This document shows, one piece after another, positions 19,681-25,534 of a stretch of DNA of 27,623 nucleotides. Under the pieces are notes generated by a model. That model was not told the DNA's origin, did no database searches, and saw nothing but the letters and a program-made list of their open reading frames with translations. How positions within the stretch are numbered: position 1 is the first letter of the stretch; each line of letters opens with the position of its first letter. A program made the position numbers and the translations under genes. This DNA comes from a virus: positions 1 through 27,623 of IMG/VR virus record IMGVR_UViG_3300032213_001125. One strand, written 5' to 3'.

Positions 19681-20075
19681 CACTTTTTCCCCAATGTTTC
19701 CTGCAAAGTTGGCCGTGAATAGTCGCCGCGATTGATTGGACCCACTTCAAGCTGCACCTTGCCATCGCGCATAACAAGTTTACCGCCCTTGATAAGGCGA
19801 GGCTTCGGCGTGTTGTTGTAGATCAATTCGCGCTTTTGATTGCTGTAATAAACCAAAGTCACGTCGCCGTTTTCTATGCGCTCAAGTGCTTTGCTGAGCC
19901 GCATCTGCACCGTTTCGGTCAATGGTTTGGCTTTATCTACAAAAATCTGACGCAGATATTGTTCGGTGAAGCCAGCAAGCTCACCAAGATAAGACCAAGA
20001 GATGATGCGCTTCTCATCGTTCGCGAAGCGTTCCATCCGCGCATAGAGTTCGGCTTTTGTCATTGGTTTCTTCAT
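19680..20075 (-). CDS. Helix-turn-helix DNA-binding protein next to terminase (131 aa)
   Basis: Residues about 24-65 look like a lambda-repressor-like helix-turn-helix: SWSYLGELAGFTEQYLRQIF, then VDKAKPLTETVQMRLSKALE. A strand-rich second part (DVTLVYYSNQKRELIYNN) and a Lys/Arg-rich tail follow. The ATG overlaps the terminase stop as ATGA. Two readings are possible: a small terminase subunit, which recognises packaging sites and is usually coded beside the large subunit, or a transcription regulator of the late module. Its place after the large subunit is unusual for a small terminase, and oligomerisation features are not clear. Confidence 0.6.
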   Translation of the reverse strand: MKKPMTKAELYARMERFANDEKRIISWSYLGELAGFTEQYLRQIFVDKAKPLTETVQMRLSKALERIENGDVTLVYYSNQKRELIYNNTPKPRLIKGGKLVMRDGKVQLEVGPINRGDYSRPTLQETLGKK

Positions 20076-21841
20076 TGTCCGTACATCCCAATCTTTTTGA
20101 GATAGTCAGAGACGTTACGGCCAACCGACAATTGTTCTGAAGTATATTCTTCTTGATCTTCACTGACTTTGCGAGTAATGCGCCTTGCAATGAGTTGCGG
20201 CTGCACCTGTTCGGCAAAAGCGGCTGCGGCCAAACCTGTTGCCATAACACGATCATCTTTAGACCGTCCCGGCGCGGAAATAGTTCCACCTTCGCGGCGA
20301 ATGGTTTTCATTTCTTCAACAAGGTCCATGCTGCGAACCTTCATCATCTCGCGCTCAAAGTAATCTTTGAAGTAAGCAAGCATACGTTCTTTCGAGCCGT
20401 GGCTTGTCACCCAACCGATAGAGTTCGTAACGCCGCCAAGATTGTCGTTCTTGCGCCAGAGATAGTTCTGCATAGAAGACAGGACATTCATCAGGTCTTT
20501 TTGCTGGCGAGATTGTTCTGGTGGCATTGCCGCAGCCTGACGCCGCAAGTTCTTCAGTTCTTGCAAGACCGCTTGGCCTGGGCCATTAACTTCCAGATTG
20601 AGAGTAGAGTTCTTATACGCACCAGCCAAGTGAGCGATAACCCATGCGAACTGGTAAGTGTTAAGTTCACTCGTAGCAAACTCGGCAACCTGGTCAAGTC
20701 CGTCCGCATAACAACGAAAGACTTGGATGCAGAACCTATCAGCCCAGTCCGAAGAACCGTATGCCGGGTCTGCTCCGATAACATAGAACGCCGTGTCAAT
20801 TGGCTCCTCCCAGATTTTCAACGTGGCAAGTCGTTCTGAAGATTTGACAACTTCAGTATCAACGAAATTATGTCCCATCACATAACGATAGCAATCGGGC
20901 GAGAGCTTTTTGATTTCCTTCGCAGCGTCAGTGCAGCGCGAGTTTGAAAAGAAACTCGTTCCGGTCATCACGAAAGCATAGTCTTCCGTGGGCGGGAACT
21001 CCTGATACATGAGCGCGTCATCTTTGATGCCTTCGTGCATCTTCCAACGCCACCAAGCCATCTGGCGCGAGTTGATCTCAACGCCATAGAGCTTCTTGAT
21101 GTCTTTGACCCATTCCTTTTCTTCGGGCGTGAGCTTGCCGTCCCAATAGACTTTGTAGACAGGCGTCTCGGCTCCAACAGAATAAAGTTCGTTGCGCCAC
21201 CAGCCGCAGAAGATTGCTCGTTGCGTACGCGCCCGTTTGGCCGTGACATACATATCGTGGAACATGTTGAAGCCGCGCGCGGTGCTTTCGAACATATAAA
21301 GCCGGTTTGGATTAGTCTCAGCGAGTGAGGCGAGGAGGGACGCCAACCCTTCCTCATCGCCCCACGAACTCGTCTCCGTCCCGTGGAGATAAGTAATCGC
21401 CTTACCGCGACCAAGCGAACCCTTAGCGCGTAGGCCAGCCACCTGATAGAAAAGCCGCGAGCGGTTCTTCAGAGATAGCTGGTTACGGTTATGGGCAACC
21501 GCCGGGATTTTGTACTCACGCGGCAAACCATCCATGTACATCGCCAGCGTCGTCCTGAACATGTCACGGTTTTCTTCCGTGTCTGTGGTCAGAGTGCCTT
21601 GCAAGCCTTGATGCACAAAGTGCCAATAGAGGTCGAGCGCGAGGCTGATTGTTGTGATGCCAAGCTGACGCCCCTTCAGGATGACAAAGAAGTGGATGTC
21701 TTCCTGTAGACCCTTGTTGATTTCTTCCATGACATAGGTCTGCGTCCCCAAGAGCGTGTCCATGCGCTTGAGGCCGTGTTCCTTAGTCTCAATCCTAAGC
21801 TGAGAGCAAAAGTGGTAGAACTGTTTAAGGTTAAACTTCAT
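20072..21841 (-). CDS. terL: Terminase large subunit (packaging ATPase/nuclease)
   Basis: I start at the ATG 21841-21839, which overlaps the upstream stop as ATGA; a GTG at 21847 would add two residues. The ATPase half has a Walker A-type segment KGRQLGITT at residues 56-64 and a probable Walker B/catalytic region ITYLHGTETSSWGD with Glu156. A coupling motif FESTARGF lies near 184-191. The nuclease half has IGADPAYGSSDWAD with Asp358, LNLEVNGPG with Glu417 and the SKDDRVMA segment with Asp529/Asp530, the acidic metal-binding set of the RNase H-like fold. The enzyme docks on the portal, pumps DNA with ATP and cuts concatemers. The 589-aa length matches T7-like terminases (about 586 aa). Confidence 0.92.
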   Translation of the reverse strand: MKFNLKQFYHFCSQLRIETKEHGLKRMDTLLGTQTYVMEEINKGLQEDIHFFVILKGRQLGITTISLALDLYWHFVHQGLQGTLTTDTEENRDMFRTTLAMYMDGLPREYKIPAVAHNRNQLSLKNRSRLFYQVAGLRAKGSLGRGKAITYLHGTETSSWGDEEGLASLLASLAETNPNRLYMFESTARGFNMFHDMYVTAKRARTQRAIFCGWWRNELYSVGAETPVYKVYWDGKLTPEEKEWVKDIKKLYGVEINSRQMAWWRWKMHEGIKDDALMYQEFPPTEDYAFVMTGTSFFSNSRCTDAAKEIKKLSPDCYRYVMGHNFVDTEVVKSSERLATLKIWEEPIDTAFYVIGADPAYGSSDWADRFCIQVFRCYADGLDQVAEFATSELNTYQFAWVIAHLAGAYKNSTLNLEVNGPGQAVLQELKNLRRQAAAMPPEQSRQQKDLMNVLSSMQNYLWRKNDNLGGVTNSIGWVTSHGSKERMLAYFKDYFEREMMKVRSMDLVEEMKTIRREGGTISAPGRSKDDRVMATGLAAAAFAEQVQPQLIARRITRKVSEDQEEYTSEQLSVGRNVSDYLKKIGMYGQ

Positions 21842-22035
21842 GTCCACTCATGCTCTTCAAAAGAGAGAACTGCCTCGGCAAATTCGGCAATGTCTTCATG
21901 TGTCGCATAGACATCGACCAAAGTCACAACACCGCGCAAGCCATTCCTCAAACGATTGATCTCTTTGATTGCTTCCGCAATGTCGGGATCAGGAACGAAG
22001 GCATGTCTGGCTTCAAGCTGTTCAAGGATGTTCAT
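21838..22035 (-). CDS. 65-aa acidic helical protein before terminase
   Basis: The short protein starts MNILEQLEARHAFVPDPDIA and continues as charged helices (EAIKEINRLRNGLRGVVTLV), with an acidic C-terminus (FAEAVLSFEEHEWT). It is ATGA-coupled to the terminase gene and starts only 2 nt after the radical SAM stop. A small terminase subunit is one possibility from position, but no DNA-binding motif is visible and the protein is acidic. Function unknown. Confidence 0.65.
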   Translation of the reverse strand: MNILEQLEARHAFVPDPDIAEAIKEINRLRNGLRGVVTLVDVYATHEDIAEFAEAVLSFEEHEWT

Positions 22036-22037
22036 GC

Positions 22038-22940
22038 CTATTGCCCGCTGTTGTAGAGGGTCACGCGCTTATCAACTTCCTGTTTGCTCTTTGCGTCAAG
22101 CAAGACGATCTTCCGCTTTTCATGCGTGGCAGATTTTGTCGCCAGGTCGGCATTGCTTTCCGTATAGGTGTCAACGTCATCTGTATCGATAGACGGTTTG
22201 AGCTTGGCAGGCACTCCGCAGCCGGGGCAGAAGCGCTTAATCTGGTCTCCAAACTCGGTGATGTGCTTTTGCCACCAGCCTTCAGTCACGGGCAGGCCAT
22301 GGTCCTGATTGCGGGCAAGGTCAAAGCTCGCTGCAACCTCGCAAAAATAGGCCCGAAGCTCGCCCTTGTTCTGGACAATGGACGCAGACCATTCCTTGTT
22401 GATGTCGCAATTGGCAATCTTGTTCCACATCTCTGCCTCTGGGTAGAGGTCTTTGACTGCGGTCAGCAAAGGCGAGTGCTGGGAATTGCCGCCATAGAAC
22501 CAAGACAGGCCACCGCTGGCCGTCACAGTCTTATGCAGATCGAGCAAATTGGCTTCAGCCCGCGCCTGACCGTGGCTATTGAGGTTAAACGTGCCAAAGG
22601 TTTCCTCAATAATGGCGCGGTGTTTGAAGTAATTGTTCGTCCAAAGGCCGCGCTGCAACTTATTCGGCACTTCTTCCTCAAAGATGCGGCAAAGGGTTTC
22701 AAACTCTTTGTGCATACAAGGATTGCCGCCAATCATGGCGATAACGCCGAAATAGCCCTTCAGGCTCTTCAAAGCCTTGCGAAAGTTATCAGGCGTCATC
22801 TCCCAGAAGGCATCCTGGTTTTCCAAGAGCCTTGTGCAGTTGGAACAAGCCAGATCACACTTGTTGGTCACATCAATACAGATGATGTGCATGTTGCGAG
22901 GCCCGCGCATACGGGCAATAGCGTTCTCAACGTGGTTCAT
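22038..22940 (-). CDS. Radical SAM protein with auxiliary cysteine cluster
   Basis: The N-terminal part has the radical SAM cluster motif C28-x3-C32-x2-C35 (DVTNKCDLACSNCTRL), which binds a [4Fe-4S] cluster and cleaves S-adenosylmethionine. GGNP at residues 71-74 stands where radical SAM enzymes usually have GGEP. The C-terminal part has Cys178, Cys200, Cys238 and Cys241 (RFCPGCG), a spacing that resembles a SPASM/twitch-type auxiliary iron-sulfur cluster. Enzymes with such clusters modify peptides, sugars or RNA, but the substrate here cannot be named. The gene is ATGA-coupled to the glycosyltransferase, and together they precede the terminase. Radical SAM genes are uncommon in phage packaging modules. 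Confidence 0.8.
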   Translation of the reverse strand: MNHVENAIARMRGPRNMHIICIDVTNKCDLACSNCTRLLENQDAFWEMTPDNFRKALKSLKGYFGVIAMIGGNPCMHKEFETLCRIFEEEVPNKLQRGLWTNNYFKHRAIIEETFGTFNLNSHGQARAEANLLDLHKTVTASGGLSWFYGGNSQHSPLLTAVKDLYPEAEMWNKIANCDINKEWSASIVQNKGELRAYFCEVAASFDLARNQDHGLPVTEGWWQKHITEFGDQIKRFCPGCGVPAKLKPSIDTDDVDTYTESNADLATKSATHEKRKIVLLDAKSKQEVDKRVTLYNSGQ

Positions 22941-23620
22941 GTTCTAGCCTTTGCCCAAGGAAAGCCATCGGGAAACTGTGCCTGCGCCTTGATGTTCCCC
23001 TCAAAGAAGAACGCCCTCAAGTCACGTTTGGCATTAAGCCGGTAATTCAGGCTGTAGAGGCCATTGCAGGCGCTCTCTAACTTATTCTGCGTCAAAGCCT
23101 GGTACACGAACCTGTCACCAATCATGAGGTCGCCGGTTGTCTTGTACCACAGGGGCGCTATCTGAGCCGCAATGTTGCGCTCCATCAGATAACAATTGAG
23201 ATCAATAAAGCCGCTATGATGCCCCAGACTTTCGAAGTTATCGTGGGCAAAAAAAGAGCCATCGACGTTCCTGATAGAACGCAAAGAATACGCATACGGT
23301 TTATCACCCTTGGCCTCCACCAGGCTTGCCACATGATTGGGCTCAAACCAGTTGTCGTCATCAACCCAGCAAATCAGGTCTTCCTGCACCAGATAGGCCG
23401 AAGCAGCGACAATACCGCCGTTCATCATCCCGCCGCCGCCCGTCTTCACAGGCAAGAAGCAAAGCTCAACGCCCTCAAGGTCAGCAGGCTTTACCGCCAA
23501 ATCAGCATCATCAACAAACACATAATGCCGACACGGATAGGTCTGCCGACGCACACTATCCAAAGTCTGCAATAACTCTTTGCGCCCAGTGGTCGCGGTC
23601 ACTACGGCTACACTCTTCAT
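22937..23620 (-). CDS. Glycosyltransferase family 2-like protein (GT-A fold)
   Basis: The N-terminus MKSVAVVTATTGRKELLQTL, then DSVRRQTYPCRHYVFVDDAD, is typical of GT2 nucleotide-sugar-binding domains. WVDDDNWF (Asp87-Asp88-Asp89) supplies the DxD-type metal/nucleotide site. A later GDRFVYQAL segment recalls the acceptor/catalytic region of this family. The length of 227 aa is a minimal catalytic domain with no membrane helix, so it should be cytoplasmic. It probably transfers a sugar from a nucleotide donor to an unknown acceptor (DNA, virion protein, host surface sugar or a peptide). The ATGA coupling with the radical SAM gene suggests that both act on a common product. Confidence 0.8.
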   Translation of the reverse strand: MKSVAVVTATTGRKELLQTLDSVRRQTYPCRHYVFVDDADLAVKPADLEGVELCFLPVKTGGGGMMNGGIVAASAYLVQEDLICWVDDDNWFEPNHVASLVEAKGDKPYAYSLRSIRNVDGSFFAHDNFESLGHHSGFIDLNCYLMERNIAAQIAPLWYKTTGDLMIGDRFVYQALTQNKLESACNGLYSLNYRLNAKRDLRAFFFEGNIKAQAQFPDGFPWAKART

Positions 23621-23628
23621 GACACCCC

Positions 23629-23844
23629 CTACCAGATTATAACCAAGTCATCTTGCCACTCAGCGACACCATCGCAGGCAATGTTCCACTTCTTCTCGGA
23701 ACCAGCCCAACTCTCTTCCGAATAACAAGTCGTCAAGATGCGAACACCAGCCGCCAGACGCTCCTCACCATCCTCAATCACCCGCCAAACCAAATGATCC
23801 GCAGGCCCAGCCTTGGTGTTAAACCTGATCTGATAGTGCTTCAC
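23629..23844 (-). CDS. 71-aa small phage protein, GTG start
   Basis: The start is set at the GTG 23844-23842, just outside the tRNA gene. The frame upstream of it runs into the tRNA, which rules out the longer 81-aa version. A weak GGGGA lies four bases upstream. The product contains HLVWRVIEDGEERLAAGVRI and WAGSEKKWNIACDGVAEW. This strand-rich pattern (RFNTK..., WRV.EDG.E.L..GV.I, KWNI.C.G.A.W) I associate with small proteins of tailed phages, but I cannot name the family. It starts 16 nt after the tRNA 3' end on the same strand, so it is probably cotranscribed with it. Confidence 0.6.
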   Translation of the reverse strand: MKHYQIRFNTKAGPADHLVWRVIEDGEERLAAGVRILTTCYSEESWAGSEKKWNIACDGVAEWQDDLVIIW

Positions 23845-23859: not shown

Positions 23860-23936
23860 TGGTTGCGGAGGCAAGATTTGAACTTGCGGCCTTCTGGTTA
23901 TGAGCCAGACGAGCTACCGGGCTGCTCCACTCCGCG
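23860..23936 (-). tRNA. Initiator tRNA-Met (CAU), CCA encoded
   Basis: The complete 77-nt cloverleaf can be drawn. The acceptor arm CGCGGAG pairs with CTCCGCA and has the C1-A72 mismatch typical of bacterial initiator tRNA. The D arm has GAGC/GCTC with the A11-U24 pair also typical of initiators. The anticodon loop is CTCATAA (anticodon CAU), and the T arm GCAAG/CTTGC has loop TTCAAAT. The 3' CCA is encoded. Most of the sequence matches bacterial tRNA-fMet. The anticodon stem has G30-C40 and G31-C39 but U29-A41 in place of the G29-C41 of the classical three G-C pairs. It would deliver formyl-methionine to the ribosomal P site at start codons. Confidence 0.95.
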
Positions 23937-23947
23937 CCAGTGAACCT

Positions 23948-23978
23948 AACTACAATCAAACAACACCCGATTGTAGTT
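23948..23978 (-). terminator. Perfect 10-bp hairpin between the first late gene and the tRNA
   Basis: The arms AACTACAATC (23948-23957) and GATTGTAGTT (23969-23978) pair perfectly around an 11-nt loop. On the minus strand the structure follows the end of the 74-aa gene by 18 nt and ends 11 nt before the tRNA 5' end. No T-run follows, so instead of a terminator it may be a processing signal for tRNA 5' maturation or an RNA stabiliser. Confidence 0.5.
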
Positions 23979-23996
23979 TCAGCCCCAAAACTTCAA

Positions 23997-24221
23997 TCAC
24001 TCAGTGCGCCAAACCCGAACGCCACCCTCAACACGCCGAGCAACAAACTTCTTCCCCAGACGCTTGCCGTAATTGTACGCCGTCGAGTGCATCCGCTTCG
24101 GACCAGCCATGTCCTCAAGCGCTACAAAGAAACTCTCCCCCACTTCCATCGTCTTAAACGGGTACTTCCCAGACACCGGACGCGGCGCAGGCATCTCGTA
24201 TCCCCTATCAACTTGGTACAT
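23997..24221 (-). CDS. Small DUF7303-like protein, first gene of the late module (74 aa)
   Basis: A perfect AGGAGG ribosome binding site lies 5 nt before the ATG at 24221-24219. The product has a GKYPFKTMEVGESFFVALED segment, followed by STAYNYGKRLGKKFVARRVE and a strand ending VRVWRTE. This KYPF..M.VGESFFV pattern I associate with a small phage/prophage family annotated as DUF7303; the name is from memory. The basic middle helix could contact nucleic acid. It opens the minus-strand module facing the divergent control region and could be an early product made from that promoter region. Confidence 0.7.
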   Translation of the reverse strand: MYQVDRGYEMPAPRPVSGKYPFKTMEVGESFFVALEDMAGPKRMHSTAYNYGKRLGKKFVARRVEGGVRVWRTE

Positions 24222-24676: not shown

Positions 24677-25534
24677 ATGCGGAATATTCACAAAGAGATC
24701 AGCGACAAGATCGTTGCTGCAATGGAGCAGGGCACCTTGCCTTGGATCAAGCCTTGGTCAGGTATGGGCGGGTCTGGAATGCCGCGCAATGCTATCACGC
24801 GCCGCGCATATTCCGGTTGCAACGTCACATTGCTTTGGCTCGCTGGTGAGGCTGGTGGTTACATCAGCAATCGGTGGCTCACCTACAAACAAGCGCAAGA
24901 GGCCGGTGGCAACGTCAAGAAAGGCGAAAAAGCCACTATGGTGGTTTACGCATCCACCTTTGACAAAAAGAACGACCAGGGCGAGATCGAGCGCATTCCG
25001 TTTCTCAAAGCCTTTTCGGTCTTTGCCTTGGAACAATGCGAAGGCTTGGATCACCTAATCGAAAAGCCCAAGGCGCTTAACCCTGACCAGCGCGACGCTG
25101 AAACAGATGCTTTTCTGACATCCACCAGCGCTGATATCCGGCATGGCGAGGGCAGGGCATATTATCAGCATTCAGACGATTTTATTATGCTGCCACCGTT
25201 TGAAGCATTCAAATCCGGCACCGGATACTATGAAACAGCGCTGCATGAATTGGTGCACTGGTCAGGGCACGGAAAGCGCTGCAATCGTCAATTTGGCAAG
25301 CGCTTTGGTGATCGCGCCTATGCAGCAGAAGAATTGGTTGCGGAATTGGGCGCCGCATTTATGTGCGCTGAATTTGGCTACGATGCTGTAACGCAACATG
25401 CAGCCTACATTCAGAATTGGATCAAAATGATTAAAGACGATCCGAAAGCCTTTGTCACAGCATCAAGCAAGGCGAGCCAAGCAGTCGAATATCTCAGGGG
25501 GCTTGCAATCGAAGACCAAGCCTTAGCAGCCTGA
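24677..25534 (+). CDS. ArdC-like antirestriction protein (285 aa)
   Basis: The N-terminal domain (residues 1-125) matches the ArdC/TraC-type ssDNA-binding domain: IHKEISDKIVAAMEQGTLPW, IKPWSG, then RAYSGCNVTLLWLAG, KQAQEAGGNVKKGEKAT and VFALEQCEGL. The C-terminal domain is a zinc-metallopeptidase-like domain with HELVHWSGH (His190, Glu191, His194) and EELVAELGAAF with Glu219 as probable third ligand. ArdC proteins, best known from conjugative plasmids, protect incoming DNA against host restriction. As first gene of the plus-strand module behind the control region, it would be made early, which suits that role. AAGGGAT precedes the ATG. Whether it is active here cannot be told. Confidence 0.85.
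   Translation: MRNIHKEISDKIVAAMEQGTLPWIKPWSGMGGSGMPRNAITRRAYSGCNVTLLWLAGEAGGYISNRWLTYKQAQEAGGNVKKGEKATMVVYASTFDKKNDQGEIERIPFLKAFSVFALEQCEGLDHLIEKPKALNPDQRDAETDAFLTSTSADIRHGEGRAYYQHSDDFIMLPPFEAFKSGTGYYETALHELVHWSGHGKRCNRQFGKRFGDRAYAAEELVAELGAAFMCAEFGYDAVTQHAAYIQNWIKMIKDDPKAFVTASSKASQAVEYLRGLAIEDQALAA

Follow-up and report, generated by a model that had tools for sequence, protein, structure and literature searches.

Why would a phage carry a gene for the tRNA that starts translation, and is the tRNA encoded here in fact of that kind? The reasons for which phages carry tRNAs are still debated. In the window, by which we mean the whole 27,623-nt stretch of DNA analysed here, from a freshwater-type phage, ARAGORN calls a sole tRNA, a tRNA-Met(CAU) on the minus strand, with the following parts.

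23860 to 23936, minus strand: initiator-type tRNA-Met(CAU), 77 nt, with encoded CCA at 23862-23860 (ARAGORN, RF00005, initiator versus elongator models, fold)
23893 to 23909, minus strand: anticodon arm UCUGG-CUCAUAA-CCAGA, with anticodon CAU at 23902-23900 and the variant pair U29 (23907) : A41 (23895) (sequence, comparison with host and viral tRNAs)
23930 to 23936, minus strand: 5' strand of the acceptor stem, CGCGGAG, with C1 (23936) opposite A72 (23864), unpaired, a formylation-type end (sequence, fold)
23864 to 23870, minus strand: 3' strand of the acceptor stem, CUCCGCA, with A72 at 23864 (sequence)

This gene matches the Rfam tRNA model (RF00005) at 63.4 bits, above the gathering score (29), and chance origin is no serious alternative for a match of this strength. 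Read 5' to 3', the molecule is CGCGGAG-UG-GAGC-AGCCCGGUA-GCUC-G-UCUGG-CUCAUAA-CCAGA-AGGCC-GCAAG-UUCAAAU-CUUGC-CUCCGCA-A-CCA, a complete cloverleaf with CAU in the canonical anticodon loop CUCAUAA, an A11:U24 pair, and CCA encoded in the gene. It also has the formylation determinants, namely the lack of a Watson-Crick pair at 1:72 (here C1xA72), G2:C71 and C3:G70 (PMC7949028). The minimum-energy fold predicted for it is likewise a cloverleaf with 1:72 open; the fold z-score of the tRNA by itself, -1.5, carries no information. In a simple test with covariance models built from 10 host initiators and from 16 CAU elongators, the window tRNA scored 101.3 bits with the initiator model and 70.9 bits with the elongator model, while control elongators scored 64.9 and 97.5 bits, respectively, so that the window tRNA is clearly of the initiator type. 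An elongator identity is ruled out by these scores together with A11:U24 and C1xA72. The preliminary description, which had read the gene as a complete 77-nt CAU tRNA with C1xA72, A11:U24 and encoded CCA, and as an initiator rather than an elongator, is thus borne out on both points.

Three G-C pairs in the anticodon stem, at 29:41, 30:40 and 31:39 (3GC), are taught as a near-universal mark of initiator tRNAs. They are also held to be such a mark in the literature (PMC7949028, PMC11497404). The stem of the window tRNA, U29-G30-G31 / C39-C40-A41, has G-C at 30:40 and 31:39 and U-A at 29:41, where it departs from the strict E. coli form. The hallmarks named in the preliminary description (CAU, C1xA72, A11:U24, CCA) are therefore all there, but the set is incomplete, as this break in the 3GC stem had been overlooked. 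Since most of the sampled alphaproteobacterial host initiators also fail strict 3GC, having A-U at this position, we class the window tRNA as an initiator-type variant and not as a canonical 3GC initiator. It resembles bacterial tRNAfMet (E. coli metZWV and metY, and the alphaproteobacterial form) in CAU, C1xA72, G2:C71, C3:G70, A11:U24, G30:C40, G31:C39 and the encoded CCA, and differs at 29:41, where it has U-A, while E. coli and Gammaproteobacteria have G-C and most sampled Alphaproteobacteria have A-U. The nearest initiator found, an alphaproteobacterial-type copy (L284), is 92% identical, and the six substitutions between the two all fall within three compensated pairs, 6:67, 29:41 and 52:62, the pattern left by selection for an intact tRNA. 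Judged by its sequence, the window tRNA is very likely of initiator type and functional.

The bacterial baseline for the 29:41 pair was taken from a scan with one pattern in which positions 29 and 41 were left free. In 289 genomes of Alphaproteobacteria, 124 of them without a match to the pattern, the matches listed have A29:U41 with two exceptions, a G-C and a U-A; in the gammaproteobacterial class (185 genomes), the listed matches have G29:C41 save two A-U and one U-A, and the U-A exceptions in both scans are the centre genomes, picked for that feature. A search for the exact U29:A41 pattern gave 64 finds in 84,980 bacterial and archaeal genomes, many of them in Patescibacteria; in seven patescibacterial genomes, the pair is found in what is apparently the sole initiator tRNA. 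Twelve proteobacterial genomes with U29:A41 were checked, and ten of these also have a host-type copy, the U-A copy standing alone in a Brevundimonas MAG (L414) and a Micavibrio MAG (L409). In ten genomes, L414 among them, the U-A copy adjoins phage-type genes, for example those for a terminase, portal, tape measure protein, primase or helicase loader; the copy in L422 has nearby only a PHROG without known function, and that in L409 looks chromosomal.

In viruses, initiator-like tRNAs are a known kind: similar sequence is found in 220 GenBank phage records and in many IMG/VR matches. The earlier statement that initiator tRNAs are rare phage cargo is not supported. The IMG/VR scan used a pattern in which the anticodon stem was left free, and a copy was counted as internal if no contig end lay within 400 nt of it; there are at least 81 distinct internal copies among the matches listed. 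Within these 81, the 29:41 pair is A-U in 40, G-C in 22 and U-A in 19, and so is Watson-Crick throughout; 30:40 is G-C in 79, and 31:39 is G-C in 59, C-G in 15 and other in 7. The 1:72 position is not always mismatched, as U1:A72 is found in 17 and a strong G-C pair in one of the 48 copies with encoded CCA among the matches listed. Sixteen of the 99 viral copies listed lie within 400 nt of a contig end and mostly have A29:U41, and these end copies probably are host genes that border prophages. Five viral, prophage-like contigs, and others similar to them, have a complete alphaproteobacterial-type initiator tRNA less than 400 nt from an end, which suggests that prophages of Alphaproteobacteria integrate at the initiator tRNA gene.

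Among named phages, U29:A41 is found in Caulobacter phages CcrSC, CcrColossus and BL57, Rhodobacter phage RcXuper, Sinorhizobium phage phiLM21, Xanthomonas phage Elanor and a spring myovirus. A stem unlike the usual host form is in this way shared by unrelated phages. A29:U41 is combined with C31:G39 in one Rhizobium and one Agrobacterium phage and occurs in other named phages, including those of Mycobacterium and Gordonia; one Erythrobacter phage has C29:G41, with C11:G24 in the D stem; and 3GC is intact in the remaining named phages checked, where the GenBank records of Aeromonas AP1 and Pseudomonas Y6 may represent host contamination. The window tRNA is like the tRNA-fMet or tRNA-Met genes of CcrSC, CcrColossus, phiLM21, RcXuper, mycobacteriophages and Elanor in being phage-borne and of the initiator type, and several of these share U29:A41 with it. 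However, several of the known genes belong to tRNA arrays of large phages, whereas the window tRNA stands alone in a genome that is small, possibly not complete, and from another family. A 735-kb phage (LR756501) has three tandem initiator-type CAU tRNAs within 300 bases, with anticodon stems that differ from each other.

Within the minus-strand late block, the tRNA comes second, near the 5' end, and lies between two phage genes, as previously described. Its surroundings are as follows.

23997 to 24221, minus strand: first gene of the late block, 74 aa, upstream of the tRNA, with weak DUF7303/PHROG matches
23942 to 23985, minus strand: strong hairpin with a 13-bp core (23978-23948), between the 74-aa gene and the 5' end of the tRNA; fold z-score -2.7
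23629 to 23844, minus strand: ORF of 71 aa directly downstream of the tRNA, with a GTG start and a GGGGA-like Shine-Dalgarno sequence
20072 to 21847, minus strand: terminase large subunit (TerL), which anchors the tRNA locus in relatives; the tRNA lies about 2 kb upstream here

A family search with the 71-aa ORF gave no match. The hairpin, to which 3 of 200 shuffled sequences folded equally well, is followed by no terminator-like T run, and is possibly a processing or punctuation element. PADLOC gave no match among the neighbours. Between the tRNA region and the terminase (22038-23620, minus strand), a radical-SAM-like protein and a family-2 glycosyltransferase are encoded by genes that overlap by a few bases; the pair is also present in the relatives L201, L202, L240 and L140/L203, at about 66-74% DNA identity, and possibly modifies the virion or host surface. 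In the divergent plus-strand block, there is an ArdC-type anti-restriction protein with ArdcN and zincin-like domains (24677-25534).

Relatives of the phage were fetched by the major capsid protein (MCP) or TerL, irrespective of tRNA content. On 16 distinct contigs of theirs there are 19 CAU tRNAs, which all have A11:U24 and either C1xA72 or A1xA72; not one has GGG/CCC in the anticodon stem, which is either UGG/CCA or AGC/GCU, and in nine contigs the anticodon loop is UUCAUAC in place of CUCAUAA. In this family, the gene lies 14-2959 nt upstream of TerL and usually adjoins tRNA-Arg(ACG), which is seen in at least seven relatives. Some relatives add tRNA-Trp(CCA) or tRNA-Gly(UCC), so the recurrent tRNA set is very small. 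Related phages thus do carry the initiator tRNA, which is found in 9 of the 42 relatives with at least 2.4 kb of sequence upstream of TerL, and the two nearest relatives (94-95% TerL identity) are without it. Such carriage marks the gene as accessory cargo at a conserved place. The search for isolated close relatives found none, only two genomes from spring metagenomes, both tRNA-less. When the MCP was searched against the 289 alphaproteobacterial and 185 gammaproteobacterial genomes, only distant matches were found, the best (48% identity) in a Nitrosomonadales MAG; a phage-like contig of this MAG bears an initiator tRNA with U29:A41, the feature for which the MAG had been picked, and, the matches being distant, we assign no host to the phage.

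The tRNA had also been proposed to aid the GTG and TTG starts of the phage, but the start codons of aligned orthologues show no association of this kind: they are ATG 65, GTG 1 and TTG 0 in the tRNA-carrying relatives and ATG 562, GTG 9 and TTG 11 in the remaining ones, in a comparison where TerL, p15917 and p19213 are largely uninformative, their first codon being unaligned. GUG and UUG are, moreover, readable by any CAU initiator. Codon compensation was rejected as well, as initiation at AUG poses no rare-codon problem and the tRNA-Arg(ACG) that accompanies the initiator in relatives normally is a major host isoacceptor. A TTG 'start' at 23874 is an artefact that falls within the tRNA itself.

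In two relatives of the phage, L207 and L209, the initiator tRNAs have no differences outside the anticodon arm and nine inside it; the downstream flanks are 94.6% identical, and the neighbouring tRNA-Arg genes are identical. We compared 69 viral 77-mers for divergence confined to one region (at least 6 differences within it and at most 2 elsewhere), and found six such pairs for the anticodon arm, which are not independent, as they are mostly between related phages, and none for the acceptor, D, or variable and T regions. The swapped arm is UCUGG-UUCAUAC-CCAGA, and its loop is also present on CAU elongators of other viral contigs. In a literature search of limited scope, we found no description of the exchange of arms, nor of phage copies so often lacking G-C at 29:41.

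Variation in phage initiators falls chiefly in the anticodon arm; G30:C40, CAU, a weak or unpaired 1:72 and A11:U24 are retained. The acceptor end governs formylation and factor recognition, and in the small subunit A1339 grips the 30:40 pair and G1338 the 29:41 pair (PMC11497404); as the acceptor-end features and 30:40 are kept by the phages, these tRNAs should still initiate. In the E. coli 3GC mutant (U29:A41/C30:G40/A31:U39; PMC10486304), the same U-A is found at 29:41, but the window tRNA, unlike the mutant, keeps 30:40 and 31:39 and should be much less impaired. VapC toxins cleave tRNAfMet within the anticodon stem-loop, and one that was tested leaves elongator tRNA-Met intact (PMC8522696). 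Changes in the anticodon loop are frequent in phage tRNAs and are predicted to stop such cuts, and phages are reported generally to avoid encoding tRNA-fMet where VapC-LT2 targets it (PMC10264068). An arm-altered replacement initiator would fit both the cleavage of tRNAfMet in this arm and the proposed escape of phage tRNAs from nucleases.

We consequently favor, with a probability of roughly 0.45, a reading in which the gene encodes a functional, formylatable substitute initiator, whose arm has been diversified, plausibly for escape from VapC-like nucleases. The gene would yield a methionylated, formylatable tRNA, expressed with the late block and standing in for the host initiator; VapC-type nucleases that cut the anticodon arm would destroy the host tRNA during infection, and the arm-altered phage copy would survive them, so that initiation could continue. 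That the phage raises or replaces the initiator pool, as the preliminary description had it, is possible, and we regard use as a substitute, rather than another role, as probable. Selection of the arm change by nuclease evasion is a more tentative step, for which the odds are somewhat short of even. The window tRNA is like the evader tRNAs proposed for phages (PMC10264068, PMC11555353), which face anticodon nucleases or other tRNA-targeting defences, in that its anticodon arm is probably unlike the host's; yet the published evasion changes lie in the loop (PMC10264068), whereas here the initiator stem varies and the loop changes only in relatives. The window arm apparently departs from the host form at 29:41 only, its loop being canonical, while in relatives the whole arm or the loop differs, so the case for evasion is stronger for the family than for this gene by itself. 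The reported avoidance of tRNA-fMet by phages where VapC-LT2 targets it counts against the favored reading, as do the A-U pair of most sampled Alphaproteobacteria, since 29:41 may simply tolerate drift, and carriage by a minority of relatives, with absence from the two nearest.

The main rival to evasion is a matter of dosage, in which an extra initiator gene raises late initiation capacity and the 29:41 change is neutral, as that pair need only be Watson-Crick. The position of the tRNA in the late block, the Watson-Crick pairs at 29:41 in 81 of 81 viral copies with 30:40 retained in nearly all of them (among the matches listed), and the A29:U41 of alphaproteobacterial hosts themselves are all in agreement with it, as is the description of A1339 touching the bases of 30:40 and of G1338 touching, at 29:41, the 2'-OH of residue 41 (PMC11497404). 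Dosage, however, leaves unexplained the swaps of whole arms between otherwise identical tRNA bodies, and also why 29:41 is near-fixed in each host class and variable in phages of the same groups, among the matches listed; we consider it rather unlikely.

Another possibility is specialised initiation, where the small subunit would hold the anticodon stem less firmly and start-codon choice or factor need would thereby shift toward phage mRNAs. A swap at 30:40 in E. coli tRNAfMet lowers discrimination against CUG in vitro (PMC11497404), and the E. coli 3GC mutant, with U29:A41 and two more changes, initiates under a shortage of normal initiator or of formylation (PMC7949028, PMC10486304). But phages preserve 30:40, for which the codon effect is known, and GTG and TTG starts are not in excess in tRNA-carrying relatives, which makes this account improbable. 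No more credit is due to mimicry of a host whose own initiator has U29:A41 and of which the phage carries a copy: such hosts apparently exist, to judge by single-match Patescibacteria genomes with U29:A41 as the only matching copy and by the Micavibrio MAG, yet the same pair is found in phages of Caulobacter, Rhodobacter, Sinorhizobium and Xanthomonas, whereas A-U or G-C stands at 29:41 in the Alpha- and Gammaproteobacteria sampled (among the matches listed), and the body of the window tRNA is closest to an alphaproteobacterial-type initiator. Finally, a non-translational remnant, either an attachment-site copy or punctuation for transcript processing, is very improbable despite the copies near contig ends (16 of 99 among the matches listed) and the hairpin before the gene, since the window copy is complete, carries its own CCA and shows compensated changes. 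It sits upstream of TerL, like its counterparts in relatives, and inside the gene map rather than at a genome end, with no integrase among the proteins scanned (part of the window ORFs).

Phage initiators amount to a natural mutant series, in which 29:41 and partly 31:39 are dispensable and 30:40 is not. On a broader and rather doubtful view, phages of many bacterial groups may be in an arms race over initiation, in which the body and 30:40 are kept fixed for formylation and the ribosome, and the arm is swapped as a cassette against host nucleases that target the host's own initiator. Every phage protein needs an initiator, and the exchange of arms on identical tRNA bodies provides a direct and cheap test of nuclease evasion.
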